From positions 32,622,338-32,686,337 of the forward strand of contig NC_091932.1 in assembly GCF_041260155.1 (NCBI RefSeq): 64,000 bases of DNA, read 5' to 3'. The DNA is from Ptychodera flava. Lineage: Eukaryota > Hemichordata > Enteropneusta > Ptychoderidae. The translations under genes and the position numbers were made by a program. Positions 4,701 to 42,015 of the stretch are shown here, piece after piece. The notes beneath the pieces are model-generated. The model had not been told where the DNA came from. It ran no database searches and worked only from the letters and a program-made list of their open reading frames with translations. Numbering within the stretch: position 1 is the stretch's first letter; every line of letters starts with the position of its first letter.

Positions 4701-7700
4701 CAGCCGGGTTTGGAAACTCATTAAATCTCCAGTCTATGTTTGGTGCCGGCACTGATCCAGATATAGGTGAAACAGAGTTAAAGAAACAACAGGCAAATGA
4801 TATATACATCAGTGTTTAACATGCCATCTTAAAAGTATGGTTTCAATCTGATTTTTCGAGGCAAAATTTGCTGATTTTTGGCAACTTTCGCTTATGCGCT
4901 GAAACTGAAACCTATCTGTACATATTTATATTCTGTGAAAATTTGAAAAATAATATGCAGGGCAGATGGAAATAGGCAATTGATGTAAATTTTTTACACC
5001 GAACAGAGATAACAAGTACTTATATTACATATAAGGTCGATTTCCTTTTAAATTAAGAAATACAACCCATATCTATTGAGAAATGTTTACAATGACAGAC
5101 TATGTATGAAGAAAAGTAATAGATTAAAAAGGCACAAAGAAACATGATTTAGGTTTACAAAGTATTAAGTTTACAATTTTTAGGTTAGCAGGTGCATGTG
5201 CATGCATCTTTCTCTTGCTTGAAGCCGCTAATTGCGTACAAAAATAAAGTATATCACGCCCCTAGATGACAATACCTACATGCAAGGGAATACCAGGAAG
5301 ACCAGATTTAACATAGAAGGTGCCTTGGGGATAGATATTCAGACTATACAACTTTAACCACACTTTTTGCAAACTTTGAGCGAAAGTTTAAATCTTTCAA
5401 TTTCAAGGTGCGTATTACCTTGAGAAAAAAGACAATGATTATAATCTGAAAAATGACCTTTAACTACAGTATGCATCATTTGGGCAAGGTAAATTCTCTC
5501 TTTTTCATTAACATGTTATTTTTTGTGATTTTCTGGCACTTTTGTACTGCAAGGATATTGTCCACCAGCTTGGCCATCAGTCTGTGATAATAGGTTTGGT
5601 CCGGTATCCAGTTAATTTCCTCGATAGGTTTTGCAATGAATTTCATGTAATCTGAGCTCAGGCACCTGAAATAAAATGAATATATCATAGAGTCATGAAC
5701 CCATTTAACACAGAAAACAGGTTTAAGCATTAGCTGTGTCAAACACAATGAAAATGGAAGCATAAAATCTTACAAGATGAATTTCAGTAAAGATGATTTA
5801 TAGCAACAAACTAAAATGTATTCAAATCAAAAATAAACTTACAAAGGGATAGATTGCACGTAATCATTCATATATGAATACAAAGTTTTTTTTTAAATAT
5901 TGCCGTCATTTTTATCGTATGGCCATATAATAGCGATATTTCGGCATAGAGTTGCATGGAGGGAGTTCTAATATGAATATAAACTTTAACGGCTGACTCG
6001 CAGTGTGTTTGCAAGGTTATATCTGATTGGTCGATTGTCACTATTCACAGCAACTTAGGGAGTTTATTTGTATTGTTTTAATTATATTGGTAAGATTCAG
6101 CCAACCAATAGGATAACAGCTTCGCAATCGCTGCAAGTCGGCCCAACATTAATCCAGCTAGGGGGTCTGATACGGATGATATGACCCATCTACAGGGTCT
6201 AATGCAGATTTTGATTGGTGATTGTTGGGTCTGATATCAATTAATAGTGGTGGATGTAAACTTACCAGCCAGGGGGTCTAATATGGACATAAACTTACCA
6301 GCCAGGGGGTCTAATATGGATGTAACCTTACCAGCCAGGGGGTCTAATATGGATGTAAACTTACCAGCCAGGGGGTCTAATATGGATGTAAACTTACCAG
6401 CCAGGGGTCTAATATGGATGTAAACTTACCAGCCAGGGGGTCTAATATGGATGTAAACTTACCAGCCAGGGGGTCTAATATGGATGTAAACTTACCAGCC
6501 AGGGGGTCTAATATGGATGTAAACTTACCAGCCAGGGGGTCTAATATGGACATAAACTTACCAGCCAGGGGGTCTAATATGGATGTAAACTTACCAGCCA
6601 GGGGGTCTGATATCTTTCAGAGATCCAATAATGGCTGCTACTAGTTTGCGTTTCAATGGTGGGCGGTCCCGAAGTCTTCTCTCATAATAATGTAATGTAT
6701 TGTACAGGTAAGTGACTGGACGGTCTGAAATATAAGAATTGCAATTTAAAATGTAAAAAGTCTGTGCCACAATTCTAAATACATTGTGTATTGAATAGAA
6801 ATTAACGACATGAGCATTTCACCTTGCGAGTCAACCAAATAAAATAAAGAAAGAAAGACATTACAGTAATGCGCTTTTCAAAACAGAAAGCTTTACACTT
6901 TAGCTCAGTCTTTCCTCAAAGAAACTTTGAACCATTCTCTTTTGTAAGCAAGAACGAGAATAACAGGTCACTGTGTAAAGTTTGGGATTAGAGAAAACAA
7001 AAGATCTACGAGTTGAAATTCAAAATGGCTGCTATACCCTATGTAAGCTACATTTGTAAAACAAATTTTTTGAGTTTCACAAAAATAAAATAGTGAAAAG
7101 TTTGTTTACTCCTCAGGCACAAACAGAACATTGAAAAATACTGTAAAAATGATAGTGACCTAAAAATCTTAGCCCGAGGCATGTTCTACCTTAAAGGCAC
7201 TGTTCGCGATCCCTGGGATCGCCTTTGTTCTAGTCTGTAAGAGGATTATGGAGGTGTGATAGCCTTTTGTTTTCCATTGAAATTGTAATCTGGTGGGTAA
7301 ATTTTCTGATGAGACAATCTGGTGCCAACACATGCCTTTAACCTGTTCACCCCCATTTCCCAGTAAACAGGTCCACAATCACAACTGATAACAATAGGTT
7401 TGGGCCGAACCATGGTGGTGAAGGGGTCAAGCAGGGCTGCAAAGATAACAGACTCACCATGGAATTTGTAGAGTCCGCCAAGGTGATCTAGTAAAGTTTC
7501 CAGTGATTTAGACACAGGTGGCAGTTCTAGGAATCTATGAATCACGATATCAAACACCTGGAACAGCAGAGGAAAAATACACAATATTCATTTATTAGAT
7601 ACACTTCCTAAAATGAAAGCTGATGCATTATTTTGATCTGTTCATACTGGAGAAGTCTGAGGGACTTTATGTAATAGTCTACATGACTATACTGTAAGTA

Positions 7701-10700
7701 TACACACATTGATTTGCCACAAGGGTGGCATATATTTTTTCCCCCTTAAGCCTGACACAGTTTGTTATAGCCAATCAATATGTGTTTTGTAACATATTGC
7801 ATCAACTTTTCTTACTGAAAAATCAACGAGTTTTTTTGCTATCACTCATCTTAGTCACAGATGATACTGCCATCTTTTATGCATTCTAGAATGTGTGCTT
7901 GCATAGATGCCGCTTTAAGTTACCCAGTCAACAGATGTTCTAAACTATTAACAGTTTGGGAAACTGGTAACCAGTAACTGGCTATTTGCATGTATCAGCA
8001 CCAAAATTATGCATACCATGTGACCGTAAATTAACGAATCACAACAGAGAGTTTGCATAAAATGTGTTTCAATACAAAGCAGTGTCCATGCATTTTGTCC
8101 AACATGACAATGTCATTCCATCCATTTCGATAAAAGATTGAATGCATTATCTGTGGTAACATATGAAACATTGTAGGCTCTCTTCCCTATCACTAGATTT
8201 CTTGTCTTGGAACCTTAAGGAGTGTGAACCCATGACTATTCTCTACCTGACTAGCTGTTCAGAAATAATTCCACAAGAAGAATGAGTTTCAGCCAACCAC
8301 TGGTTAAAGCACATTAATGCTTGTACAGTATGTGTGCAAATGCATTAGGGTTACAGACTCCGGTTGGCTGATTTCTAATGAGTGAAACAGACCTTGATGA
8401 GGCAAATACCATTAAATTTGACATTTAACCTACATCTTTGTTCTAAAGCATCACAAAGTTTAACGGGCACACTTGGGTATAGTACACAAACTTTCCTATA
8501 TCTGCACTGTTTGACTCTTAGCACGTCTATAATTTCCACTGAATTTCATTTTCATTGAATCGATATGCTTTCATTTCAATCTCATCTCTTCCTCGTCAAA
8601 TTTAAATCAAAAAGCTTGCACATTTTGTTTTGTGTTTTTTGCTTTGTGTTTTTTTTAAGTGGCTCAAGCAGTCTTTAACACCCAATTACTAAAACACTGA
8701 AGTTGATACACAAATGGCACTATGCTTTCTTTTTCCAACTATGTTGACAACGTCAACATTTGCAGCAGAATTAAGTGAATACGTACCGGTAAGAATCGAA
8801 GACACACATTCCCAAAGTAGATTGGCAGATATTGATGTGTTGTCTGGTTGACATAACCACAGTAGTCCTGTAATCCTTCAAAGTAAAACTTCTCAGGGTA
8901 TTTCTGAAAGAAAAAAATGCAGGAGATACAATAATCACATTTCAAAACATATTTGGCCCTACTTGTGAGTTCAGCACAGATGGGGGGGTTGGGGGGTTGG
9001 GGGGTGGGTACAAACGGTAGGATTGCAAATAAGCATTTCGATTCAATGGTCATGACTATATGCACCGTGTACAACATTCAAAGAGTACCAGTACCAAGAT
9101 TAAGGTAGAATGTGCCTCAAAATTGCAAGTTTAACCCTTTCATCACCATGGTTTGGCCCAAATCCATTGTTATCAACGGCAATTGTGGACCTGTTTACAG
9201 GATATTGGGGGTGTAAAGGTTAAAGAGAGAGCAAGACTATAATTTTAATCAAATCTACAATGTGTTCCATATACACATACACGCATGTTCATCCTTCCAC
9301 ATAGTGGTCTTTGTGGGAAAACATCACATTACCTACCCTGTGGAAAGCCATGTGTTTGGTATGCCAGTCAGTCTGAAGCCAATGCTCTGGTGAGTTCTCC
9401 TTGACAAACTCACTAACTCTGTTCCTGAACTCACTGGTCTTGAGTAAGAGAAGCTGGATGATGAAGAAACAGACTTGTGCCTCGTTTCCCTCGTGGTTGC
9501 GTAGCGCCTGAAACACAAGGGGGAATGTGGTAATTAAGGGGATACAATCAAAACAGACCAACAGGCAACAAAGAAGATGAAATAATGATGGATACAACCA
9601 ATTTAAACCATCTGGCAATCAAAGAAGTCTCCTTGAAATATGACTGTCGGTATGAGCTGTAGGCTGATATCAGATTTTGCATGATAGATCAAATGAGGTG
9701 AAATAACATTGGATTGAGAGACAAAATTTTGCCTTCAATCTTTAAGAACAGAATAACGCCAAAACAATGTACAAATCCTAACACAACAATTTTGTCTTCA
9801 AGTAAAAATTTAATTTTGTCTTCAAAATTTTGCTCATACTTATTGGATCTCTGAAAGATATCAGACCCCCTGGCTGGTAAGTTTATGTCCATATTAGAAA
9901 CTCCACTTGAAAATTGAAATTAAAATATTGATTAATAAGTCTTGATTTCATGAATTATTAAGAGTAAGGGAACCGGTACCTGTGCTTGTAATGAAATTGG
10001 CAAGCATCTCTATTCATTCAGATACTACATGTATAACAAATTTATCTTTGAAGAGGCTCTAGAATACAACTTACACACAAATTTAACAGGTCAAATGTCA
10101 CCAGTATGGATGGAACTTTCTTAATATACGGTACTAAAATGCATAGGAATTACTGTCACATCATGAAAAGACTTTATTTATTGCACTTACCAGACTGAGA
10201 ACCAATTTATCCAAAGCTACGATGTTGTATTTCCAGATCATGTCATTTAGGGTCTCAATACACTAAGTGAAGAAAATAGAGAAAATTACAAAATGTAGGA
10301 ACACCCAAAAAAAATCGCAGCTGAATTCAAATGTTACACAAATATTTTTATTTCACTTTTCCATTGCTAATTTGTGAATTTGTAAAATTTCTGTACCTTT
10401 AGATGAGCTATTCAATGGTACTTTTAACATTGCACAGCAACTTGTAAATTTGTAATGTACAAACATAAAATAGGGATTTATTTCCAGGCATTATCTCTGA
10501 TTTGCTTTGGTGACACTGCACAAATTAGGGCCAGTCTTTGTGGATCGATACATCTGACCATCAGCTGACTTACTTTGTTCACATGTTGACCGGCAACTGA
10601 AGTTGAGAACTCATAGACCAGGAAATCAGCAAATGTTCTGATGTGAGCTGACAGCGCCCTCGCTCCAATTCTCTCCAGTACCTTAGGCGCCACTTGGTTG

Positions 10701-16700: not shown

Positions 16701-19700
16701 TTTGGCGACATTAACAGAGCTAACATTTGCTTCACAGCAACATTTTGTGATCCATTCAAATGCTATTGATTGCTAGCTGATAGAGGGCGCCATTACCTGT
16801 CACATGCATGGCCCTGGCTATGGTCAGCACAAGGGCTCTGTTCAGTTCTTCAGACTCGCCAGACAGTAACTGTTTGGGATCATTCAGAAACCGAGACAGC
16901 TGAGGCTGGACTTCAACGCTGCCTAGACCAGTAATCAGTCGCAATGCAGTTGCTTCCACGCTGAAAAGGAAAGAGACGAAAAAGAAGACCCTAAATGATC
17001 AGGAATATCAATCAGGAATATCAATATATTGTGTAGCGTTATATTTTGATGAACAGCACCCTCTGGAGACCAAATCTGGTGAATCCTGAATATTTGAAGG
17101 ATCAAGTGTTCGTTTGCCTCCATGACAGACAGTTAGAATTCTTGAGGCATGAAGATATTCAGAGGACTGATTGCAAAAAGTAAAGAAATGTATGGCTTAC
17201 TAAAGAGTTTCCTGAATTGGGAAAATTTAATGCAATGAAAATGGAAATGGCATATGAAAATACAGCATCAGGAGTTGGTAGAAGTGAGAGAATGAAGACC
17301 TCAAAACATGACTGGAACCCTACGAGGCTAATATTCAAAGTAAGTAGTTTAGCTGTGGTCAAAGCACACTGCATAAAGTTGATACTATTCACTCAGAAAT
17401 TTAGAAAAGTATTCTTCATTACCCTGATGACTGCCATTCTATCCATTAATTTTATAGGAAAAAAAAATTGAATTGAATGTATCAAAAAGGCTAGGCAGCA
17501 ACAATATAATCTTCTGTATAGGTTTCAAAATGAATCCCAAAACGCTATACACCAGAAAAAATCCATTGGTATTTTGGCACATGAAAATCTGTCCCTGAGG
17601 TTCATTTTTTGCCCTAACCCTTTCATTGCCGTGGTTTGGTCCAATGCTATTGTTTCCAATGGTTAGTGCGGACCAATGCATACAGTAATAGGGGTGAACA
17701 GGTTAAACTGGATGGGAAACTTACCAGAGATGCAGCTGATGTTGATTGGTTTGTGGTACTGAGGTGAGTGAGTGAAGATGACTCAGCAATTGTACTCTGT
17801 AGTGTGGCTGTATGTGATGCAGTCTATAGCTGAACATTTCTAAGAGTGTGTGAAGGATTCCCCAGGCATGGCTTCGGAAAACATTCGGTAAAAGTTGACC
17901 TGAAAATTCAAAAAGTGCAGAGAAGTCAGATTTTCTTTACATATTACACATTGCATTTGCTTCTTTTCAACAGAAAATCTGTGACAAAAAATTATTCAGG
18001 CTGCGTTTATAATCACAAGTCATAGTTATGACATAATAAAAACATAACTATCGAACCAACAGTAATTTTTGTTAACATGAATGAATAAATTAATATTTCT
18101 TCTTTGTAAACTTTAAAAAGGGAAAATGTCAAAAAAAAGATGTACATAAGTAGCCTCTGATTTTTAAGCAATAAGAAATCTCAGTAATGACTTGTAATTC
18201 TTGGCAAAATTTTGTGATTTTGATGTTGAGTGTATTTATTTATTTCTTGACTTGTAAAATAGATAGAATTATGACTGATTTTCAATGTAGGGAACAGCAG
18301 GTATATTAAAGGGAAGCTAATGATGCAAGTGAATGTTCAATAATCACAATTCAGTAGGATCTCTCCATGAATGAAGCTCTTCACAAACTTTAATTTCAGA
18401 GAATCAAAGTGGATTAACCCTTTCACCAACATGGTTTAGCCCAAACCATTTGTTATCAATGGTAAATGTGGACCTATTTACAGGAAATTGGGGTGAACAG
18501 GTTAAAATTTCAGTCAACTATGCATAAAGACAACTTATCACCATAAATAAATAAATGTAATAATGAATTTTGAAAAAATGAGAAAATGGATAGCTACAGC
18601 AGGATGGAGTGACAGTGGAACAGAATTACAGCCTATCACTTACTGATAAAACCTTTGATTCCCAGTGACTCTATCTCCATGTATACAAGCAGTCTACTGT
18701 AGGTTTCAACCAATGCTGGGGCTAATGCCAGGGTGATTTTACTCTGAGCCATCTTGATCACCTTGGTTACGATGCTATGGATTAGGCTACATTATGGGAT
18801 AAAAATTTCTTGTAAGAATTATGAACATTGCATCAGTGGATGTATACTGATAGAGAGAAAGAAACATATCTGTGTAGATGTCGGTAATACAAAAATAAAG
18901 AAACATCCCCTGGCAATGTGTCTTGGAAGCTTGCAGCTTATTGGTCAGCTGGATACTATTGGCATTAATGAATCACTTCCAAACAGCCAATCAGCTACTT
19001 AGTTGCTAGGTTTCAGACTCCTTAAGTTGCTCTAAATAATGCACATTTGCCCAGCATTTTCATGTGCAAACACATAGACGTACATAAATAAATACATATG
19101 CAGTGTTGCAGCCAGGAATCGCCTTTGCGACAATGTCCCAAAAAAATGAACCCATTGTCCCACATTCTCATATACTGAGGGTCACCTTGGGTGCACCCAT
19201 GAGTCAACTGTGTTGGGTGTTGTCTGAAAGTAATATCTGTTGTTGACAATTACTTTTGTTTTGCATGATTATTTGGAGGCTTATATTTACGTACTTTCAG
19301 AGCTATGTTTAAAAGTAATTAGAATGCTGCACTTGATATCATAACTTGCCTGTAGTCTGACTGAGCTACGCAGTCTCGATAACTTTACTTTTTTTGTGTG
19401 TGAAACTAATTTGTTACAAAATAATATAAAATTTGATTGACAACTGCTGCATTTTGTCCAAAAAATGTGCAAAATGTCCCAAAAAATAAACTGCAGTTAC
19501 TGTAGTGGTTTCCCCTGATTTAAAATTCCTGGCTTCAACACTGCATATGATACATGTACGTCCATAATTACATATACAATGTACCTATAAATTCATACCA
19601 ACATACACATGTACATATTATATTTAGTTTCAGTTTCATGGAGTTGTACATACATGGCCTTGTTTACAGCAACACATTGGCAGTAGAAGGCTGAGACAGA

Positions 19701-22700
19701 TGTACTGTTCTGTCAATACTGCCAATATGCAATATGCTATCACCTCTGTCTCTATTGTCAGTGCTGTTAATGGGACAAAGTCGGCCATTTTTCATGAATT
19801 TTGTTTGATACGAGATACGACTTATATTGTTTGACATGTTGAAAGATACTGAATGAATAGGTGACCATGCATATATCTGACCCCGGTTTTAGACAAATTA
19901 AATGAAACCATAGCGAAAATGAATTAATGCCATGACCATTCATTTTCGCGATGGTTTTATGTATCGTGTCTAAAACCGGGCTTGAATATATGCATGGTCA
20001 CACATTCATTCACAACCTTTCAACATATCAAACAATATAAGTAGCATCTCGTATCAAACAAACTTCATGAAAAATGGCCGACTTTGTCAGTCCTTGAATG
20101 CACGCTGTCAATGTTATTACTGTTGTCAGCAGATTAGGCTAAACTGCATCCACTATTCCGGTTCAAGAGAGCTTGTTCAAAGTCAACAATCAACATTTGT
20201 CAGTCGACGCTAAAGTCTGAAGTCCTGGGCAACATATGGTCATCATACAAGACAACAGACTCATACACTAGAAGTTGAATTGACTGTCATGTACAAATTG
20301 TTGTGAGTAACCCAACATCAACAGTGAATTATGGAAACTCTGTTACAGTTTTAGCGTATGTTATATTTGTATCATTTAAGTCTTTTCGTGCATACAATAT
20401 GGGTCTAAGACCATTTAAAATATACTTTTTATCTCTATGGATTTCTCACTATACCTCCATACTCAAGCATTTTTACTTCAAATTTGGCTTGAAACTACCG
20501 TACTCGTCCGAGTATAAGCCCCCGGTTCGGCAACACTAAACAGCGGTAAAACTAGGGGAGGGGCTTATACTCGAGCAACCCCATGTTATCTGCCATGGAC
20601 GCTTAATTTATGCTAATTTTATGATTTTTTTTCAATACCACTCGATCTTTCTATTGCTCATGCCTATGTTTTGGCGATGTGTCCGTCAAATTCGGCCGAA
20701 AATCACACGAAACGAGCATTTTTGAAGCAAATTAAGTACCAGGTATGAATTTTGAATATGCTGGGGAACGATTGACGGTTACATGACAGACAAACTTGCT
20801 ACTTTTCACAGTAAAATCGAACGTAGAAGATGACATGGTGGCATAATCCCTATAGGAAATAGCCATTTGGTTTCCAGACTTGGGTTTTTTCTCGCTTATG
20901 TACATTCGTCTATGGGGCGAATAGTCCCAGAGCTGAATAGCTTATGAGTGACTGTGTGCTGATCAACAGTAATGTGAACAGGCATGCACTGCCTACACTA
21001 CATCTTGTGAAAACAACAACATAGCAGTGAAAATTGTAATAGTCACCAGGAAAAGTCTTCACAAATGAAAGGATAATTGCTTCAAACAAAAGAAACTGCA
21101 TGTTTTGAGCATGAAAACATCGTGGCCGTGAATGAAAATAAACAATGGCGGACGTAAGTGAGACTATTCTATTTAGGCGACGGGGGTGAGCAGGGTCAAA
21201 GAATCACGATAGTACTGGGAAAACATGTCATTTTCCTTACTATGCTGTCAAGGGAACTCCAGTTTCCCATTGTTTTAACATCTTTTAAAGTTTCTTTATT
21301 ATGTAAAAGTAATTTTACCAAGTTTAATGACCAAATATACTCTCCTAACCATTCTGTATTTGACTTACACTAGGGTAGGAGCTTATACACGGATGTAATA
21401 CATTTTCAAAAATCCTCTGAAATCAGTAGGGGGGCTTATGCACGAGCAGGGGCTTATACTCGGACGAGTATGGTATAATGTTAATTTTGGCCAGCTTACC
21501 CATGAGCCAACATCATTCATTCATTATTTCATTTGTCCATCCATCCATTCATTCATTATTTCATTCATTCATTCATCCGTTCATTCATTCATTCATTCTT
21601 TCATTCGTCCATACATTCATTCATCATTCATTTGCTCATTCCACCATCCATCCATCCATTCCATTCATTCATTCATTCATTTATTCATTCATTCATTCAA
21701 CACAATAAACCTGAGCTCACCTCATTTTAGCATGGATGGTGAGAGAGTCTAGCAAACTCATGGTCAGTGGTGTAGTTGGTCCTGATGCAATACAGTTGAG
21801 ACCTGGCATGGGTGTAGTGGTCTTGTTGGACGAAGAACCATAGATGAATTCTACCAGAACACCCATTGGCAGTGGAAAATAATCAGTGTTTGTGCTGTCT
21901 GTAAATTCAAATAAAAACCACAATTTTACGGTGTCGCTCAAATTTGATCAGAATTGATACATACCAAAGATCAACAATAAGTGTTACTTTTTTTTTTTTT
22001 TTTTTTTTTTTTAATTTTTTTTTTTTATTCAGTCCATCATCCAACAGGCGTTAGCCCAATTACAGGATGAGGTAATAACCCACTAACCCCCAATGGAGCA
22101 CTGAGGAGTAAAGTGCCTTGCTCAAGGGCACAACACCGTGCTGGAGTCTCGAACTCACCATCCTCCGACAGTGAGTCCGTTACTCTGGACCTACCGGGTC
22201 TTGAACTGGGTCTCGAACTCACCACCCTCTGACAGTGAATCCGTTACCCTAACCACTGGGCCACGGTGCCTCCCAAAAGTGTTATTTCTATCTGTTCAGT
22301 GCAGGAAAATATACGTTGATGTTATGATAATTTCTGCACAGTACAACCAGAAAAACAACAAGAAATATTTAAACCAGAAAATTAAGAATGACAAAAGTAA
22401 ATAAGGTCTGAAACTTTAGGTACTGAAGGTAAACTTTAGCAACATGCATAGCAGAGAATCTTTCAACCATGGATGTACAAAAATAGACATCCATGGTTTC
22501 AGCAGATCTGTTAATATGTCACAGTTCATAAACAATGACAGGAAATGACCAATTAGCTGTTTCAGTTACTGCTACAACTCCCAAACATAATAGGTACCCT
22601 GCATACAAATAGGTTAAAGGTCAAAATCCTCTTATTCAGATGTGTGGGCTGATTCAGTTCACTGCCACCACTCCTGCACACTTGCAGTATTTCCCTTTTT

Positions 22701-25700
22701 CTTACCTCATTTGCACATTTTTGACACTGATGTGTTCATTTGAACAAATTCACATCTCAACCCCTGCATCTACCTGTACACCAAATACTGAGACAGTAGC
22801 TTTGGCGGTATGGGAGCCTTTGTGTGTGACGGACATACATCCGCACATACATACCCACAAATATACAGACATACAGACGCCACTCAGACTCATCATATAA
22901 GCTCTTTTTGGTATTTATATATAAAACCAAATATGAGCTAATAAAAACACACAAATCATAAAGCATCAACAACAAAAAATGTCCAGATTCTGTATTATGG
23001 CTGTCATATTTGCTAGCCACGGTTTTCACTCGAGCAGGGTACCCTCCATCAAAACAACCTTTGGTGGAATAGGCCTTAAATCGATTGATAGATACGCACC
23101 ATCAAGCAGTTGTAAATGGCCTGTAAGTAGCCAGTCATGGAACTTGTCAGTTCTAAGCTGTAACATGTCAAGATGGCAATATCCACAATGCTCACAAGCG
23201 ATATAAAGGGATGTATTGCTAACTTTTCCCATCATGAGTTTGACTGACAATGATAGGAAGGAAGTAAACTTCATTTCAACGTCAGCGATGCCTGTGTTAC
23301 AAGTAGAATCGGAAGTGGCAAGCCTTCTGCATTTGCTAAATCAACCAAGACCTTGCTAGCTGTATTGCCATTTGTGATTGGTCCTCACAATTTTGACGAA
23401 ATGGTGAAATGCTACACACGACACTGTCGAGTGTTCACACATGGTTTGTTGGTGAGACTATACTATGTGAACCTAACCAAGCCCTACAGACCAGACGATG
23501 TATGGCTTTTGAACAGACATAAACGTCACTATGTCTAATAAAAAATTACTGATTGATGAATAACAATCCTTGAGAGTAGAGAGTTACAACTGAGGAATCA
23601 CAGCCGTCCATCTAGGAACATCACTCTGATAATCTCTTGAAAGTTACAAGTCATTGACAATGACATAGTCCCCACATGTAATAGGAGTATTAGTCTTGAT
23701 GGGGCAGGGAAATGTGGTCATTAAGAAGTATCACTGGAGTGTATATGTTCAAATCTATGGACACATAGGTCTATGTCGTTGTTCCCAATTTGCAACAAGA
23801 GGCATGTCTAAGTTATGGTTCTAAATCGGGAAAAAAGATCAGACCTAGCTGTACTGGCCAGCCAAGAAAAACATATGGGCATAATAAATGAGGTACAAGA
23901 TGTGACATCTTAAGGTCTATTATTCTATCAAAATTAAAGCGTATAGAACTTGTGGTTACTGAGTTATGCATATATACGCTTAATCAAGGTCAAAGGTCAT
24001 CAAGGTCACGTGACATTTAAAAAAAAATTGTAATGCTAATTAATTCATATATGCCAAAATTCAGACCTCTAGCTCTATTGGCTTGCCCACAATTATATAT
24101 GTGCATAATTAATAGAGGTAAAGCATGTGCTGTCATAAGGTCTCCCATCCTACTAAATATAAAGGACATAGCACTTGTGGTTACTTATTTATTGACATAA
24201 TTGTGTATTTTAGGTAAAAGGTTATCAAGGTCACATGACATTTTGTCAAAAAATTTCTATCCTATAGTCTATCCCTATATAACAATCATACATCTAGCTC
24301 TATTGGCTCGCTCAAAATTAGATATGCACACAATTAATGAGGTACAATATGTGGCGTGATAAGGTGTCCCATCATACCAAATATGAAGGGTGTGGCACTT
24401 GTGGTTCCTGAGTTATGGACAAATATGTATATTTGAGGTCAAAGGTCACCAAGGTCGCATGACATTTTGTCAAAAATATTGTCTTGATAAGTTATCCCTA
24501 TATACCAAAAATCAGACCTCTAGCTCTATTGGCTCGCTCAAAATTAGATATGTGCATAATTAATGAGGTACAATATGTGGCGTCATAAGGTGTCCCATTA
24601 TACCATATATGAAGGGTGTAGCACTTGTGGTTACTGAGTTATGGACAAATATGTATATTTGAGGTCAAAGGTCATTGAGGTCACGTGACATTTTGTCAAA
24701 AAAAATTGTATTGCTAAGTTATCCCTATATACCAAAAATCAGACCTCTAGCTCTATTTGCTCACTCAAAATTAGATATGCGCATAATTAATGAGGTACAA
24801 TATGTGGCGTCATAAGGTGTCCAATCATACCAAATATGAAGGGTGTAGCACTTGTGGTTACTGAGTTATGGACAAATATGTATATTTGAGGTCAAAGGTC
24901 ATTGAGGTCACGTGACGTTTTGTCAAAAAAATTGTATTGCTAAGTTATCCCTATATACCAAAAATCAGACCTCTAGCTCTATTGGCTCGCTCAAAATTAG
25001 ATATGCACATAATTAATGAGGTACAATATGTGGTGTCATAGGGTGTCCCATCATACCATATATGAAAGGTTTAGGACTTGTGGTTACTGAGTTATGGACA
25101 AATATGTATATTTGAGGTCAAAGGTCACCAAGGTCACGTGACATTTTGTCAAAGTGTCTGAGATATCTGCGTGAACGGATGGACTCATGGATGGACTCAC
25201 GGACGGACATGACCCAATCTACAAGCCCCCTGGACTTTATCTGTGGGGACTAAAAACTGTGTCACTGCATCCTTTTTGCAATATGAATACGATGAGAAAC
25301 TAAATTTTTGATTTCTTGGCCTTATACATGGGAGTCTATGGACTGCCTTATACATGGGAGTCTATGGAGGTGAAAACTAAAAAGTCCTCTAACACAACCA
25401 AATTTGATCGCATTGTGAAACAAATCGACGTGCATCTGTATGGGGTAGGGTACTATCCTTGTACCAAGTTTGAACAAAATCGCTCCAGGCGTCTCTGAGA
25501 TATCTGCGTGAACGGACGGACGCACGGACGGACAGACGGACGGACGCACGGACGGACGGACGCACGGACATGACCAAACCTATAAGTCCCCCCGGACGGT
25601 GTCCGTGGGGACTAATTACAGTAGTTTGTACTCACATGCATTGCACAGAAGTGCAATCCTGTAGTCTGTCATGGGCAGTGTCTTCATGTTAAAACTTTGC

Positions 25701-39300: not shown

Positions 39301-42015
39301 CGGCAATTGAAGAACCGAAATCGGCAGCTATAGGCTAGGCCTAGCACTTCTATGTTCCACGTAAATTAGGCCTACACTGATTGATGCACTTCCCCAAACT
39401 TATAATACATTTTCAACTAATTTAGACACTTAAAAGTGACCGGGTAGATTATACAAAATAAATTTTAGCGTGAACTTGAATTTTGAGTCGAGGGTCGAAA
39501 TCGGCAACAGAACCGAAATCGGCAGCTATAGCTGCCGATCTGATCCCAGTGAAGCCCTGTTGGATAGTCAGCGCATGCGCGGGGGACGAAATCGGCAAGG
39601 GATAAAATCGGCACGGCACCGGTACTATTTAGATAGCTCAGGCAGGCAACTCTTCAAAGTTACCTAGTGTTCTCCACATCTTGGAAACAGAGGGATAACC
39701 AATTTACATAACAATGCATAATTGGCATGATCTATTGTTGTGAAAATATATTCTTGTGTACTGTTATTAACATATGAATAGACTGTTCCAAAAAAAGAAC
39801 GGTAGCCCATTCCTAAAAATCCCCTCATAGAGACCCCTGTTAAAGCCGCACTTTTCAATCCCAGGTTCTCGCATTAGTGGAGTTCTCCTTGTAATCAAAC
39901 ACTTGGCCAGTATGATGTTTGATTTCTATAACATTAATTACACAAAGTGATCTCAACCTTTTGTCACCCTTTGCTAATCCTGCAAACAGAGTTTGTACAA
40001 GCGTTTGATTGATGGTTGGTTCCAATCACCAACGGTCATTGATTCCCCCATCACCAAAGCTTGAATTTCCTAAAAAATTGTCTTCCAGTCGTGTTAGAAT
40101 TTGAATATAACCACAGAGTTAGATCGGCAGCAGCTTTGCGCTGACCACTTGGCGGTCTGTCTGCATTTTTGCGGCCCGAAAAAAACTAAAAAGTGGCATT
40201 TTCTGGAGCGTGTGCCCGTGTGTTAGCTGTTCGGTGTCCACTTGCACAATGAACGCCGTCATAGCTTCTCGTCCTTTCAAAGGGAGGCTCCGCCTTCAAT
40301 ACCTATTCAGATGTTTTGATATTTTCTAAGTGTTTCCTAGTTTTTTGAATCCTCCACCGATATATGGCTAAATGCACTTGTGCTTTAGAAAATATATATG
40401 ACTTGTGCACAACCAATATACCTGACCTAAACACCACATGCCAGTGCTACAACTCTTGACAAATGCAGTCTTTAAGAAGCATGACAATGCTTTTATTTTA
40501 CAGGGAAACCTGTCAGGACCCAACACAGCAAATGGCTCACAAGAGTTCAGTTTGCAGAGATTTGCTGTTCAAGGGAGGTCAATTTTACATTGTGTCACAG
40601 ATTAGGGACTGGAAAGAGAAGAGCGTCCACACATCAATGCCAGATTAATGTTCGATTGGTTAAAAAATGTAGCAATTTTGAAACATACCAAAACATCTGA
40701 CAATATGTCTTGAAGCTTTGATTCCAATGTTGCCATTGGAACTGTGTCCTGAGGCTTCTTTTGATCTGTAGTAATAAAGAAATTAACATGTGTGTGAACA
40801 GACAAATCTGAAACTACTGTAATCGAAAAAAAGTTATTTCAAAACCAGTTTCTAAAAATGTATAATTTGCACATACCGGATAAAGGAAATTGCTCAACCC
40901 ATTTATCACAAAATACACTATGTGAGTTCCATGTTTACTTTGCAATGGCCATTTTGACCATGTACCACTTGGTGGTATTAAACACAAAAGATTGGCATAA
41001 ATTGTGTTTTGCCTGTATGAAAGCTCAAAAAACAGACAAGTGATGCTTCAAATATATTAATTTCATAGTGAATTCCTTGATATCAAATTTGAATCAGACT
41101 ATACTACTGCTCTGAATGTTACTGTCTGTGTCTGTCTTTGTGTCTGTCTGTCTGTCTGTCTATAAAAATGATACGTTTTTTTACAACAGTAACAGAGCTC
41201 CCTGCAAATATGAATTGTTGAAATCTGAGAATTTTCTTCACATACTTGTGAGAACGAAAACACCCCTTTGTAGTTGGTTCGGTCTTTTGGGGGAAGGGCG
41301 CCGAATAAAAGTTATAGTAATACACTGAAACTTTCTTTCTTTCCTTCTTTCTGTTTCTTTCTTCCTTTCTTCACATTTGACAGTTCCCATCTGACAGTTC
41401 CTCGATAGTCGAGTCATATAGGATGCCATAAACCCAAAAATACACTCACAGGTAATAAACCCTCGAGGAGACGCTGATCTACTCTACAGATGGCAGGATC
41501 CTGGCGTACACTTTGCTGTATGTGTATACATTCATTTCATTCACTGCACTGCATTGCTGCAGTACAGTAGCTCGAGGTTTTGCCTGGGTATTTGGGTCGG
41601 ACGGCTCTGGTTTTGCCGTCCGACCCAAATACCCAGGCAAAACCTCGAGCTACTGTACTGCAGCAATGCACTGCACTGACGTGGAGTCTTCTAAAAGTCA
41701 CCGAAAGTACGGCACCAGCTATTTGTTTTGGGTGACCTGCGAAGGACTCGGAAGGGCCCTCGTTTCATTCCTTGAATCACGAAATGCACAGTTTGTAATT
41801 TTATAATTTTACTAATCAATGCGTTCATACGCTTTGCATATGGGCAGTATATTCAGATCAGTAGCAATCATGAACTCCAAACGAACCAGACAAGGCTATC
41901 AATGCATTTAAAAACAAAAACATTCACGCCACGCTAGTGCCGAAGATTTGCAGATCCCCTTACCTGTGAGTTTGATATCGAAGGGAAGCTTTGAATCTGC
42001 CGACGCAATAGACAT
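1258..42015 (-). CDS. MED23: Mediator complex subunit 23 (MED23), 35 coding exons
   Basis: MED23 (also CRSP3/Sur-2) is a tail-associated subunit of the nuclear Mediator complex that links activators such as phosphorylated ELK1 and E1A-type activators to RNA polymerase II. The whole protein can be followed in order from exon 1 (42015) to the stop at 1258-1260. Diagnostic family strings seen include VLEQPYSRDMVCSMLGLNKQ, RTFADFLVYEFSTS, NSPEHWLQTDWHTKHM, HSVWHHSSIGQL and MRLRFITHIS. Summed exons give about 1,436 residues against about 1,370 in vertebrates; the excess is an N-terminal extension, a duplicated linker exon and a Gln-rich tail. Every exon phase is consistent except at intron 29. The gene lies head to head with a myosin light chain gene. 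No frameshift or internal stop was found, so it looks functional. Exon boundaries were set by hand from splice consensus and family conservation and may be off by a few bases in places. Confidence 0.97.
1681..1745. repeat. (CT)n(CA)n microsatellite
   Basis: Simple repeat 15 bp beyond the donor of MED23 exon 34. Confidence 0.95.
1760..1845 (-). CDS. MED23: MED23 exon 34
   Basis: Encodes LTIELYEMLEQVDKNVKVLN then HMDSISDF. Donor TTCTT|GTATCC is weak and is followed at once by a (TG)n(AG)n microsatellite in the transcript. Confidence 0.88.
2544..2664 (-). CDS. MED23: MED23 exon 33
   Basis: Encodes FFKEQVKPLVKTEEQFLFVC through RTRCLID; LVGPFLQRF is conserved. Confidence 0.96.
3416..3642 (-). 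CDS. MED23: MED23 exon 32
   Basis: Encodes EPYWMSLHERVLEVMKTDIM through SSIGQLTMLP, with FDFTASHSSFSEMTCAY and HSVWHHSSIGQL. Confidence 0.97.
4137..4209 (-). CDS. MED23: MED23 exon 31
   Basis: Encodes HTMIAREDIMKWMNGLGLVL then TSLP; phase 2-0. Confidence 0.92.
4610..4751 (-). CDS. MED23: MED23 exon 30
   Basis: Encodes PAPNIDWRFNEFPNPAAHAL through AIMDVVL. Only AG available is GATCAG|TGCC, giving a two-base start. Ends CTGAA|GTAGTG, phase 2. Confidence 0.92.
5548..5665 (-). CDS. MED23: MED23 exon 29
   Basis: Encodes CLSSDYMKFIAKPIEEINWI through LVDNILA. The best donor is GCA|GTACAA, which leaves phase 0, whereas exon 30 needs a phase 1 partner; the junction is unresolved (microexon or non-canonical splice). 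Confidence 0.85.
6251..6613 (-). repeat. 33-bp tandem array of a MED23 splice donor (11 units)
   Basis: Eleven head-to-tail units of 33 bp (unit 5 is 32 bp). In gene orientation each contains CCCCCTGGCTG|GTAAGTTT, the end of exon 28 plus its 5' splice site. Units at 6285 and 6548 have GGACAT in place of GGATGT; unit 3 has one change in the donor (GTAAGG). The unit at 6581-6613 includes the real exon end. Decayed unit-like sequence continues to about 6157. Not a CRISPR: no spacers. Confidence 0.97.
6595..6724 (-). CDS. MED23: MED23 exon 28, whose end and donor seed a tandem array
   Basis: Encodes DRPVTYLYNTLHYYERRLRD through GSLKDIRPPG, with TG of Trp as its last bases. Acceptor TATTTCAG (AG at 6725-6726). 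The donor CTG|GTAAGTTT lies at 6593-6594. The last 16 exon bases plus the donor are repeated ten more times downstream, each with the same donor; only this first donor keeps the frame, because TGG is followed directly by TAA. Confidence 0.95.
7191..7341. mobile_element. TTAA-ended MITE, family A, copy 1
   Basis: 151 bp, ends TTAAAGGC / GCCTTTAA, contains GATCCCTGGGATC and TTGTTCTAGTCTGT. TTAA ends fit piggyBac or Kolobok MITEs. Confidence 0.8.
7458..7557 (-). CDS. MED23: MED23 exon 27
   Basis: Encodes VFDIVIHRFLELPPVSKSLE through GLYKFH plus the first base of Asp. Donor CATG|GTGAGT. Confidence 0.97.
8787..8903 (-). CDS. MED23: MED23 exon 26
   Basis: Encodes KYPEKFYFEGLQDYCGYVNQ through NVCLRFLP; phase 0-0. 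Confidence 0.97.
9131..9223. mobile_element. MITE, family B
   Basis: TTAACCCTTTCATCACCATG start, TTAA end; intron 25 of MED23. Confidence 0.75.
9337..9507 (-). CDS. MED23: MED23 exon 25
   Basis: Encodes ALRNHEGNEAQVCFFIIQLL through KHMAFHR; HEGNEAQVC and VKENSPEHWLQ are family signatures. Confidence 0.97.
9840..9897 (+). repeat. Inverted copy of the exon 28 end plus donor, in intron 24
   Basis: About 58 bp identical to the reverse complement of the array edge: exon 28 bases from 6631 downwards, the donor, and the start of a GGACAT-type unit. It lies on the strand opposite to MED23, so it is not an exon of that gene. Confidence 0.93.
10191..10262 (-). CDS. MED23: MED23 exon 24
   Basis: Encodes CIETLNDMIWKYNIVALDKL then VLSL; 72 bp, phase 0-0. 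Confidence 0.95.
10574..10736 (-). CDS. MED23: MED23 exon 23
   Basis: Encodes LLWKMFLDSDRVNQVAPKVL through GQHVNK with RTFADFLVYEFSTS. Donor AAA|GTAAGT. Confidence 0.97.
11507..11570 (-). CDS. MED23: MED23 exon 22
   Basis: A 64-bp exon encoding MTNETEIVNHFSQGTPALFL, matching NENDIITHFSMQGSPPLFL of vertebrates; phases join exons 21 and 23. The ~680-bp repeat copy A starts 33 bp upstream of its acceptor. Confidence 0.88.
11604..12279. repeat. Interspersed repeat copy A
   Basis: About 80-90% similar to 21921-22941. Starts CAATTATACGGTGTCGCTC; its last 45 bp form a hairpin-like end with AGCTC..TTTGGT..ACCAAA..GAGCT. No transposase. Superfamily unknown. Confidence 0.85.
12877..13074 (-). CDS. 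MED23: MED23 exon 21
   Basis: Encodes FESITGNWCKEILTTLVHNT through EDEFKKWK, including PHNWASHTLSCFP. Donor AAAA|GTAAGA. Confidence 0.96.
15320..15672. repeat. Interspersed repeat, family D
   Basis: Begins AAGGTAGAATGC and ends CGAGATGCATAC. Shares GATCTACCACTTGTG, GATGGCGACCATTTTGA and GTAATTTGTTTCTC with 31432-31920 and 50098-50352; a short piece is at 5320-5418. Confidence 0.7.
16344..16576. mobile_element. MITE, family C, copy 1
   Basis: Starts TTAACCCTTTGAGTATC and ends GCACTCAAAGGGTG; inner TTTGACCAAAATTTTGACC repeats. Confidence 0.7.
16797..16960 (-). CDS. MED23: MED23 exon 20
   Basis: Encodes VEATALRLITGLGSVEVQPQ through ARAMHVT. Acceptor TTTTCAG, donor ACAG|GTAATG. Confidence 0.97.
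17615..17706. mobile_element. MITE, family B
   Basis: Starts TAACCCTTTCATTGCC and ends GGGGTGAACAGGTTAA; 18 bp from the donor of exon 19. Confidence 0.7.
17725..17899 (-). CDS. MED23: MED23 exon 19
   Basis: Encodes QLLPNVFRSHAWGILHTLLE through NQHQLHL; the HAWGILHTLLEMFSYR block is nearly invariant in the family. Confidence 0.97.
18414..18505. mobile_element. 92-bp MITE, family B, clean copy
   Basis: Starts TTAACCCTTTCACC and ends GGGGTGAACAGGTTAA. The inner part TGGTTTAGCCCAAACCATTT and GTTATCAATGG recurs about ten times in the window (3879-3972, 7338-7430, 9131-9223, 17615-17706, 26578-26668, 30958-31044, 33290-33375, 46998-47089). Confidence 0.8.
18644..18786 (-). CDS. MED23: MED23 exon 18
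   Basis: Encodes SLIHSIVTKVIKMAQSKITL through MEIESLGIKGFI; phase 2-1. Confidence 0.96.
19775..20087. mobile_element. Foldback/MITE with about 150-bp arms
   Basis: ACAAAGTCGGCCATTTTTCA at the left is inverted at the right end; arms meet near 19930. Moderate divergence between arms. No clear TSD. Located in MED23 intron 17. Confidence 0.8.
20498..21473. mobile_element. TIR element with TA target duplication
   Basis: Ends CCGTACTCGTCCGAG... and its inverted copy (25 bp, one mismatch), flanked by TA at 20496-20497 and 21474-21475. About 976 bp with no transposase. The TA duplication suggests a Tc1/mariner-type non-autonomous element. It lies in MED23 intron 17. Confidence 0.75.
21515..21700. 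repeat. (CATT)n/(ATTC)n microsatellite
   Basis: Imperfect tetranucleotide run 20 bp beyond the donor of MED23 exon 17. Confidence 0.95.
21721..21898 (-). CDS. MED23: MED23 exon 17
   Basis: Encodes STNTDYFPLPMGVLVEFIYG through SLLDSLTIHAKM. An interspersed repeat begins only 22 bp upstream of its acceptor, and an ATTC/CATT microsatellite follows the donor. Confidence 0.95.
21921..22941. repeat. Interspersed repeat copy B, interrupted by a SINE
   Basis: Same family and orientation as copy A, with the SINE at 21988-22274 inserted near its left end. The copy begins 22 bp from the acceptor of MED23 exon 17. Confidence 0.85.
21988..22274 (-). mobile_element. tRNA-derived SINE with poly(A) tail
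   Basis: Minus orientation: GGGAGGCACCGTGG head, A box GTGGCCCAGTGGTTAGGG (22248-22265), B box GAGTTCGAGACCC (22208-22220), a second B-box-like copy (22143-22156), the widespread GCCCTTGAGCAAGGCAC core (about 22110-22130), and an A/T-rich tail. TSD AAGTGTTACTTT / AAGTGTTATTTC (21979-21990, 22277-22288). It interrupts repeat copy B, whose paralogue at 11604-12279 lacks it. Confidence 0.88.
23850..25170. repeat. Tandem repeat, period about 227 bp, about six units
   Basis: Units share CTCTATTGGCTCGCTC, AATTAATGAGGTACAATATG, CACTTGTGGTTACTGAG and AGGTCAAAGGTCA; older units at the left are more diverged. The right end runs into GATATCTGCGTGAACGGA and a GGAC-rich tract; that terminal block recurs at 25492-25612. 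Located in MED23 intron 16. Confidence 0.92.
25502..25570. repeat. (GGAC)n-rich simple repeat
   Basis: Imperfect GGAC units, part of a block that also ends the 227-bp tandem array. Confidence 0.9.
25636..25709 (-). CDS. MED23: MED23 exon 16
   Basis: Encodes FLQQSFNMKTLPMTDYRIAL then LCNA, matching the conserved FLQQSLRNKSL...KIALLCNAY block. Donor CAT|GTGAGT. Confidence 0.93.
25901..26121. mobile_element. MITE, family C, copy 2
   Basis: Starts TTAAAGCCTGAGCGCC and ends GCGCTCAAAGAGTTAA, with TTAA at both ends. Confidence 0.75.
26279..26407 (-). CDS. MED23: MED23 exon 15, symmetric duplicated exon
   Basis: 129 bp, phase 2-2, so it can be included or skipped without changing frame. Encodes ASGLSKKGLGRDGKPVKKPG, then DDSLDQRS, then IPQALKEQLE. 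The RDG-KPGDD-(D/E)QR-P-L-E-LE spacing mirrors the end of exon 14, and the two donors are nearly identical (TAGA|GTAAGT). Confidence 0.85.
27061..27236 (-). CDS. MED23: MED23 exon 14
   Basis: Encodes NLPVPDINKPQCTHAFAMTC through GLQETLE. Its last third (RDARFARKPGDD, then RALPHGLQETLE) resembles the whole of exon 15, which points to exon duplication. Ends in phase 2 (GA|GTAAGT). Confidence 0.95.
27301..27376. repeat. (CCCT)n(CT)n microsatellite
   Basis: CCCT units followed by about 24 CT units, 65 bp upstream of MED23 exon 14 in the gene direction. Confidence 0.95.
27675..27945. repeat. Imperfect (CTGT)n microsatellite
   Basis: About 270 bp of CTGT/CAGC variants. Open in several frames only because of its composition. 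Confidence 0.95.
27980..28123 (-). CDS. MED23: MED23 exon 13
   Basis: Encodes LSKRNLTKGRDHLMWVLLQF through LLYPEKE. Phase 0-0; donor GAG|GTCAGC. Confidence 0.97.
28566..28769 (-). CDS. MED23: MED23 exon 12
   Basis: Encodes 68 residues, QKQRCPVLEEQLVDLVLVAM through HMVLSLHEK. The donor is AAG|GTTTGT, a weak site. Reading through it stays open for about 113 more codons (to a TGA at 28224), so intron retention would give a defined alternative end. Confidence 0.96.
29294..29389 (-). CDS. MED23: MED23 exon 11
   Basis: Encodes ELCRPQTELLRYVLEQPYSR through LGLNKQ, one of the most conserved MED23 segments. Phase 0-0. Confidence 0.97.
30300..30685 (+). mobile_element. 5'-truncated non-LTR retrotransposon 3' end
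   Basis: One frame reads SARHRPLLHIPYCRVNVTKN, GLIGHTSQLFNDFID, then VDVFEESHSTFKRHVNLFL and a stop at 30567-30569, like the C-terminus of LINE reverse-transcriptase proteins. About 100 bp later it ends in AATAAAATAAATTAAAATAA. The family cannot be named. Located in MED23 intron 10. Confidence 0.5.
30754..30866 (-). CDS. MED23: MED23 exon 10
   Basis: Encodes RPKLLPVVGHSGATGNAWKL through LRGLLPYDK, the conserved block before the PQTxLLRYVLEQPYSRD motif. Confidence 0.95.
31432..31920. repeat. Interspersed repeat, family D, holding a nested MITE
   Basis: Begins GGTAGAATGCGCATC, ends GATGTGCATAC. Split by the family A MITE at 31551-31701. Confidence 0.7.
31551..31701. mobile_element. TTAA-ended MITE, family A, copy 2
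   Basis: 151 bp, nearly identical to 7191-7341, inserted inside a family D repeat (31432-31920). Confidence 0.82.
32596..32665 (-). CDS. MED23: MED23 exon 9
   Basis: Encodes GLGEVLSNFVDSFRPTAHMA, then SIT and the first base of Gly. Acceptor ATTGCAG, donor ACAG|GTGAGA. Confidence 0.93.
33581..33685 (-). CDS. MED23: MED23 exon 8
   Basis: Encodes VVSYILDRNACLLPSYLAIN through TTHW; ILxRNACLLPxY is a family signature. Phase 0-0. Confidence 0.95.
34532..34630 (-). CDS. MED23: MED23 exon 7
   Basis: Encodes GCRDLLRVILEKIQTIPVNL through VATK; 99 bp, phase 0-0. Confidence 0.92.
34974..35085 (-). CDS. MED23: MED23 exon 6, with a GC splice donor
   Basis: Encodes LICDCLLKCDKLTYTNSDLW through VIRKVIGGVDYK, with the conserved IGGVDYK block at the very end. 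The donor is AAG|GCAAGT, a GC-AG intron with an otherwise ideal consensus. Confidence 0.92.
35282..36146. mobile_element. hAT-like non-autonomous element, 865 bp
   Basis: Ends CAGAGTTCGCG and CAGTGTTCGCG (inverted), with subterminal TTACGC/TACGCA repeats at both ends and a 6-bp duplication TTTATG (35276-35281 and 36147-36152). CAGNG ends are hAT-like; a 6-bp TSD is shorter than the usual 8. An inner inverted repeat lies at about 35425-35640. Located in MED23 intron 5. Confidence 0.7.
36401..36525 (-). CDS. MED23: MED23 exon 5
   Basis: Encodes EAHEGMMQYYVAYIHSLKSH through KAHIPPK. Acceptor CTTTAG, donor CAA|GTAAGT. Confidence 0.9.
36853..36940 (-). CDS. MED23: MED23 exon 4
   Basis: Encodes FVLHSQEDDKTKIICCLEAF and on to SVPQ, the family segment before the first helical repeats. 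Acceptor ATTACAG, donor CAG|GTAAAT. Confidence 0.88.
37460..37491 (-). CDS. MED23: MED23 exon 3, 32-bp microexon
   Basis: Encodes KTSAIEEAFC plus two bases of Gly, matching the conserved KTEVIEEAFPG block of the family. Acceptor CCTGTAG, donor GG|GTAAGTG. Its phases (0 in, 2 out) fit exons 2 and 4 exactly. Confidence 0.8.
37857..39626. mobile_element. TIR element of about 1.77 kb
   Basis: Inverted ends of about 65 bp: AGTGCCGGTGCCG..., GATTTTATCCCTTGCCGATT and ...GACTATCC on the left match the reverse complement of 39562-39626. No transposase reading frame and no clear TSD. Contains a tandem duplication near its right end. Located in MED23 intron 2. Confidence 0.72.
39103..39530. repeat. Tandem repeat, period about 195-200 bp
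   Basis: Two and a part copies of a block starting with GAAATCGGCA and containing TGATGCACTTCCC and TTTAGACACTTAAAAGTGAC; part of the TIR element at 37857-39626. Confidence 0.8.
40689..40765 (-). CDS. MED23: MED23 exon 2
   Basis: Encodes DQKKPQDTVPMATLESKLQD and on to SDVL. The internal Met-Ala-Thr aligns with the start of vertebrate MED23. Acceptor TACTACAG, donor TTG|GTATGT. Confidence 0.85.
41541..41679. repeat. Near-perfect 65-bp-arm palindrome
   Basis: Arms 41541-41605 and 41615-41679 with two mismatches and a 9-nt loop; includes CTCGAGGTTTTGCCTGGG. Located in MED23 intron 1. Confidence 0.93.
41964..42015 (-). CDS. MED23: MED23 exon 1 (codons 1-17)
   Basis: Starts MSIASADSK and ends ACAG|GTAAGG; phase 1 end. 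The upstream ATG (A at -3) adds 33 residues before the Met in exon 2 (40734-40736) that aligns with the vertebrate start, so either Met could be used. Confidence 0.7.

Follow-up and report, generated by a model that had tools for sequence, protein, structure and literature searches.

Minisatellite-like duplications that extend across exon-intron boundaries and carry splice signals in many of their units, so-called mirages, have been described in amphioxus, where they also show length instability (PMC3087553, PMC3902484). According to the available portions of these reports, the mirages of Adh3, the globins and TnC do not interfere with splicing, as was only suggested for that of PGBD5 (PMC3087553, PMC3902484), and the BflGb6 globin mirage consists of a homogenised core with divergent edges (PMC3087553). 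A second related system is the VNTR in intron 18 of human ABCA7, the 25-bp unit of which begins with the GT of the exon 18 donor; in the text available, approximately 2% of transcripts are stated to keep one unit, independently of VNTR length and leading to a stop, and a longer VNTR is associated with more skipping of exon 19 (PMC5954066). Human minisatellite expansions altering exon and intron structure have been recorded as well, and as far as the accessible text goes they are not a closer match to the locus described here (PMC2812944).

In this study, we analysed a 64,000-nucleotide stretch of Ptychodera flava DNA (the window), in which the coding region of MED23 runs from position 42,015 to 1,261 on the minus strand. 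The assignment to MED23 made in a preliminary description of the sequence is borne out by the exon at 10736-10574, which matches human MED23 in PDB (E 4.8e-21), and by the predicted protein P0001, named mediator ... subunit 23-like isoform X2 [Ptychodera flava], which has a Pfam Med23 match and is covered for 1424 of its 1432 residues by 35 exact minus-strand segments. The eight residues left uncovered occur singly where two segments meet, the pattern expected when introns split codons. The exon bearing the array is the 28th of these 35 coding segments, as had been proposed; it occupies 6595..6724 (minus strand; residues 1075-1118 of P0001 matched exactly, AG/GT borders) and ends in KDIRPPG-W with the split codon TG/G, that is, in phase 2 (a slash marks exon-intron borders here and below). 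Exon borders place intron 28, which hosts the array, at 5666..6594, and intron 24, which also concerns us here, at 9508..10190 (both minus strand). P0001 reads IRPPGW-CLSS, joining the exon-proximal donor to exon 29, and since it carries the label isoform X2, further MED23 isoforms probably exist.

The array itself occupies 6251..6613 (minus strand), where TRF reports a period of 33, 11.0 copies, 96% matches and a score of 677, confirming an 11-fold head-to-tail repetition of 33 bp per unit that continues into intron 28. The first copy is the end of exon 28 with its authentic donor, CTG/GTAAGTTT (6587..6597, minus strand), and ten further copies lie inside the intron. Each unit combines 19 exonic nt from the exon end with 14 intronic nt containing the donor and the intron start; the repeated part had been described as 16 exon bases plus the donor, of which the composition holds and the exonic length does not. 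CTG/GTAAGTTT is found in ten of the eleven donors and CTG/GTAAGGTT in one, at a spacing of 33 nt and once 32 nt. GTAAG is kept in all 11 units, and nine of the ten extra donors are identical to the authentic one over 11 bases, which settles an earlier count of nine or ten extra units keeping GTAAGT: ten extra units exist and nine carry it. Mean pairwise identity is 0.96 over ten of the 11 units (the one with a 1-nt deletion, unit 7, being left out). Of the remaining variants, units 2 and 10 carry ATG in place of ACA, unit 9 has a T-to-G change, and unit 1 has the C of the exon instead of T. The 18-mer GACCCCCTGGCTGGTAAG, allowing up to 3 mismatches, matches the window 12 times (11 times in the array on the minus strand, once at 9864-9881 on the plus strand) against 0.02 expected, thus excluding a chance origin, and none of 100 shuffles reaches 12. 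An exact 22-mer gave no match in viral contigs, as expected for an animal gene.

Like the amphioxus mirages of Adh3, BflGb6, BflGb9, TnC and PGBD5, as far as their descriptions are accessible, the MED23 array has a unit that spans the exon-intron boundary with splice signals in its copies, and it likewise adjoins the authentic site and, as in BflGb6, has a homogenised core with divergent edges. It differs from them in its hemichordate host, its gene and its 11 copies of a 33-bp unit, compared with units of 10-72 bp in Adh3 and 150-160 bp in the globins in the available text, which also mentions no inverted copy in a second intron. With the ABCA7 VNTR it shares a short unit that repeats the exon's donor (GTAAG in 11 of 11 units); in contrast, the ABCA7 unit starts at the GT, lies in the intron and is present in about 12 to 427 copies, and the length-dependent splicing effect given in the portions available concerns skipping of the next exon. 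No report of a donor array in MED23 was found in the literature searched. The novelty that had been claimed can therefore extend at most to the gene itself, because boundary-spanning donor arrays are known from amphioxus and ABCA7, to judge from the accessible parts of those papers. The array is most likely a hemichordate mirage and mostly a passenger; as a mirage, it would represent a boundary-spanning minisatellite in a hemichordate.

The coding consequence of the extra donors is uniform. Use of any of the ten yields TGG TAA, that is, a stop after W1118 of 1432 and a loss of 314 residues, and although five of them add a length not divisible by three, the stop comes first in all ten cases. 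That extra-donor use truncates MED23 is thus confirmed, while the position given previously, a stop at about residue 1,124 with about 312 residues lost, has to be replaced. A dose switch, in which a sizeable proportion of splicing goes to the extra donors, the resulting mRNAs stop after W1118 and are degraded, and copy number sets MED23 dose, could draw on this shared early stop, which precedes coding exons 29-35, on the authentic donor's 11 bases being present in nine of ten extra donors, and on the drop of ABCA7 expression as its VNTR lengthens, as given in the available text (PMC5954066). However, the stop is automatic for an exon ending in phase 2 (TG/) followed by a GTAAG donor, and is a by-product of phase and donor consensus with no sign of design or selection. 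Furthermore, in the same partial source, unit retention in ABCA7 is independent of VNTR length and it is exon 19 skipping that changes (PMC5954066), amphioxus mirages were reported or suggested, in the accessible text, not to disturb splicing (PMC3087553, PMC3902484), and no second P. flava protein is named among the best 120 of 586 protein matches, although truncated MED23 forms may be hidden in the two-member cluster of P0001 or may never have been annotated. The dose switch is accordingly unlikely in our judgement, and the tunable switch proposed in the preliminary description gained no support beyond being possible.

Distal to the array, intron 28 contains sequences not stated in the preliminary description, which did not state the inverted copy treated below either. 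Two consecutive units with altered donor signals are found at 6145..6203 (minus strand), with a local score of 53 against a best of 33 in 200 dinucleotide shuffles, and a segment at 5960..5986 (minus strand) reaches 36, where the highest of 200 shuffles is 33; it may represent either a last, incomplete decayed unit or original intron sequence out of which the array expanded. The 158-bp stretch between these relics (6144-5987) has a match of 18 only, within the shuffle range, and no second copy within the window. Four more unit-like matches in intron 28 (scores 22, 22, 20 and 18) are weak and are not counted as units, being close to what shuffling gives at the same rank (95% points of 20 at third and 19 at fourth rank). 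Decayed units thus probably continue the array to 6145 and further to 5960. This extension suggests that the array is old, and the contrast between near-identical proximal units (0.96, ten of 11 units) and decayed ones at 6203-6145 suggests that it was once longer and that its exon-proximal part has since been homogenised, a relative timing read from unit similarity.

These relics also bear on the quality of the assembly. One amphioxus mirage seems to be aberrantly assembled in the draft genome, according to a supplementary legend (PMC3087553), and misassembly could likewise have altered the unit count or created the inverted copy here. We regard such an artefact as highly improbable, given the private changes in units 2, 7, 9 and 10, the relics flanking the array, and an inverted copy with its own single-copy flanks; moreover, the published P. 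flava assembly, which we guess to be the source of the window, was built from PacBio reads as far as the available text states (PMC11175523). In that hemichordate assembly paper, genes were predicted with the help of RNA-seq and Iso-Seq (PMC11175523).

The twelfth match to the 18-mer belongs to an inverted copy, 59 nt long, of the end of exon 28 and its donor at 9840..9898 (plus strand) in intron 24, recovered by both an inverted-repeat search and blastn. It comprises 37 exonic nt, the donor and the first 22 intronic nt, lies antisense in the MED23 pre-mRNA, and is 97% identical to the exon 28 junction (blastn E 2e-24), with 3,208 nt between the arms. It departs from the first junction at two positions, both accounted for by the ATG variant that units 2 and 10 also carry. 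Among the 22 pairs listed for window positions 1-40,000, this is the sole inverted repeat of at least 50 nt and at least 95% identity. A query with 32 of the 35 coding exons (all but the three that correspond to residues 163-196, 231-254 and 847-866) found exonic copies elsewhere in the window for exon 28 alone; for two other exons only the flanking intron matched elsewhere. A dispersed repeat family that had acquired the exon end and inserted at two places would explain one inverted copy away from the array, but no additional copy exists in the 64 kb (18-mer with up to 3 mismatches; blastn), the 30-nt flanks share no common word longer than 6 nt, and the intron 24 stretches on either side are single-copy in the window, making this origin extremely improbable.

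The inverted copy is informative for how the array may have arisen. It holds a single unit, in which the look-alikes ATATCAGA of the exon end and ATATTAGA of the intron stand exactly 33 nt apart (9858, 9891), and slippage between them would have given birth to the array. An alignment between the relic at 5960-5986 and the end of the inverted copy extends through AACTCC, with 23 identical columns out of 26, 2 mismatches and 1 gap. This extension match is suggestive of a fossil of a one-unit ancestor, but the idea was not adopted since the copy does not share the decay of the relics: with no private change in 59 nt beside decayed relics, it is not simply a fossil of the array's age. Instead, the inverted copy may be a side product of the unstable segment that produced the array, for instance through templated insertion during break repair. 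Turnover of the array presumably continues by slippage or unequal exchange, and such turnover would keep the donors alike without selection on them.

Whether the inverted copy could act in RNA was considered by computed pairing. Its duplex energy is -107.4 kcal/mol with the exon end and first donor and -62.1 to -77.6 kcal/mol with the ten extra units, compared with a mean of -25.7 and a minimum of -41.1 for 200 mononucleotide shuffles of the copy, and among approximately 800 windows along 32 kb of transcript, the 13 best all fall within exon 28, the array or the relics. In the minimum-energy fold of a 3,751-nt stretch the first donor lies inside a helix with the inverted copy, and one scramble of the copy raised the fold energy by 52 kcal/mol. 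Together with arms of 59 nt at 97% identity, these values favour the reading that the copy pairs in the pre-mRNA with the exon 28 donor or with array units, which might mask the first donor and send splicing to the stop-producing units, or might bring the exon 28 donor near the exon 25 acceptor and so yield a circular RNA of exons 25-28 (171+117+100+130 = 518 nt). On the other hand, with the copy scrambled the first donor is paired anyway, with exon bases 6632-6647, so removing the inverted copy would not free it; a 600-nt limit on pairing distance precludes the long helix and leaves the copy paired with nearby sequence; energy folding at the kilobase scale is a poor guide to what happens in living cells; and intron 24 could already be spliced out by the time exon 28 is transcribed. 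We thus hold such pairing to be quite unlikely. Inverted complementary intronic elements favour circular RNA, and as in circRNA loci with such elements, the inverted-repeat search places complementary stretches in both introns flanking exons 25-28; unlike those loci, the MED23 arm includes the donor itself and its partner is multi-copy. The fuller model, in which the intron 24 copy would hide the exon 28 donor for as long as intron 24 remains in the transcript, the array would offer ten unmasked stop-yielding donors, the rate of intron 24 removal relative to transcription would set the amount of productive MED23 mRNA, and some molecules would form the exons 25-28 circle, is very unlikely. Pairing of the inverted copy with the donor is nevertheless the only reading considered here that would be new, and an active copy would provide a natural example of a gene in which an intron contains the antisense of a donor further downstream.

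The array as a structured RNA (6251-6640) was rejected, as none of 100 shuffles folds less well (z +3.63), and accessibility does not favour the first donor: unpaired probability is at most 0.0011 for all eleven donors and 0.0003 for the first, so the low overall structure of the array does not raise donor accessibility. Two of five other MED23 donors have equally low values, and three have higher ones (0.0048 to 0.0225). Given this poor folding and the lack of a donor favoured by accessibility, the array itself shows no feature suggestive of a regulatory design.

Taken as one explanation, a minisatellite of the mirage kind, born by slippage and still turning over, with splicing mostly exon-proximal and the inverted copy as a by-product, is likely. 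Splicing would occur mostly at the exon-proximal donor with little retention, because exon definition ties this site to the exon; neither sequence nor accessibility singles out the first donor, and its preference, if real, would thus come from its position at the exon. One or more units may be retained in a minor fraction of transcripts, which would then stop after W1118 and be degraded. This explanation is consistent with the tandem structure and unit variants, with distal decayed units scoring above the shuffle maximum, like the non-homogenised edges of the globin mirage (PMC3087553, accessible text), with P0001 joining the exon-proximal donor to exon 29, with the reports, or in the case of PGBD5 the suggestion, that amphioxus mirages leave splicing undisturbed (PMC3087553, PMC3902484), and with one-unit retention in ABCA7 of approximately 2% in the tissues measured, according to the available text (PMC5954066). 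The silent decoy, offered previously as one of two alternatives, likewise agrees with the mirage reports and with the donor choice in P0001. Against this explanation, P0001 is a predicted protein labelled isoform X2, and the slippage model is based on one relic and a short extension match. Furthermore, the intron-proximal donor is preferred in DOK7, where it is also the stronger one (PMC5585400); should the site closer to the 3' splice site win among equal donors as well, heavier use of the extra units would be expected. As a mirage, the MED23 array would also provide a clean natural series of eleven near-identical donors for the study of spliceosome choice among equal 5' splice sites and of array birth.

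Several further features were observed in the same gene. Intron 29 (window 5558-4767, minus strand) looks like a U12-type AT-AC intron by the U12 consensus, GACA/ATATCCTTG ... TTCTTTAACTCTGTTTCAC/CTATATC, and its AT-AC borders yield the reading VDTISGSV of P0001. At this site, 10 of 120 fetched MED23 proteins read D/E-N-I-L, as if translated into ATATCCTT, 60 read D/E-T/S-M/I/V and 50 fit neither pattern; the D/E-N-I-L reading is possibly a recurrent misannotation. Residues approximately 471-529 of P. flava MED23 (window 27236-26281, minus strand) form an insertion missing from the Branchiostoma protein P0002; within the insertion, two consecutive exons encode similar sequences (KPGDDTAEQR and KPGDDSLDQR), which may reflect an exon duplication. 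Other repeats include an inverted repeat at 19774-20088 (151-nt arms, 87% complementary, 13 nt apart), a tandem array of 5.7 copies of a 226-bp unit at 23873-25153 within a MED23 intron, and dispersed repeat members in MED23 introns at 7336-7430, 9131-9225 and 17617-17707, the first of which is inverted relative to the other two (71-82% complementary). Adjoining TC and CA dinucleotide runs occupy 1680-1748, only a few bases past the exon segment that ends at 1756.
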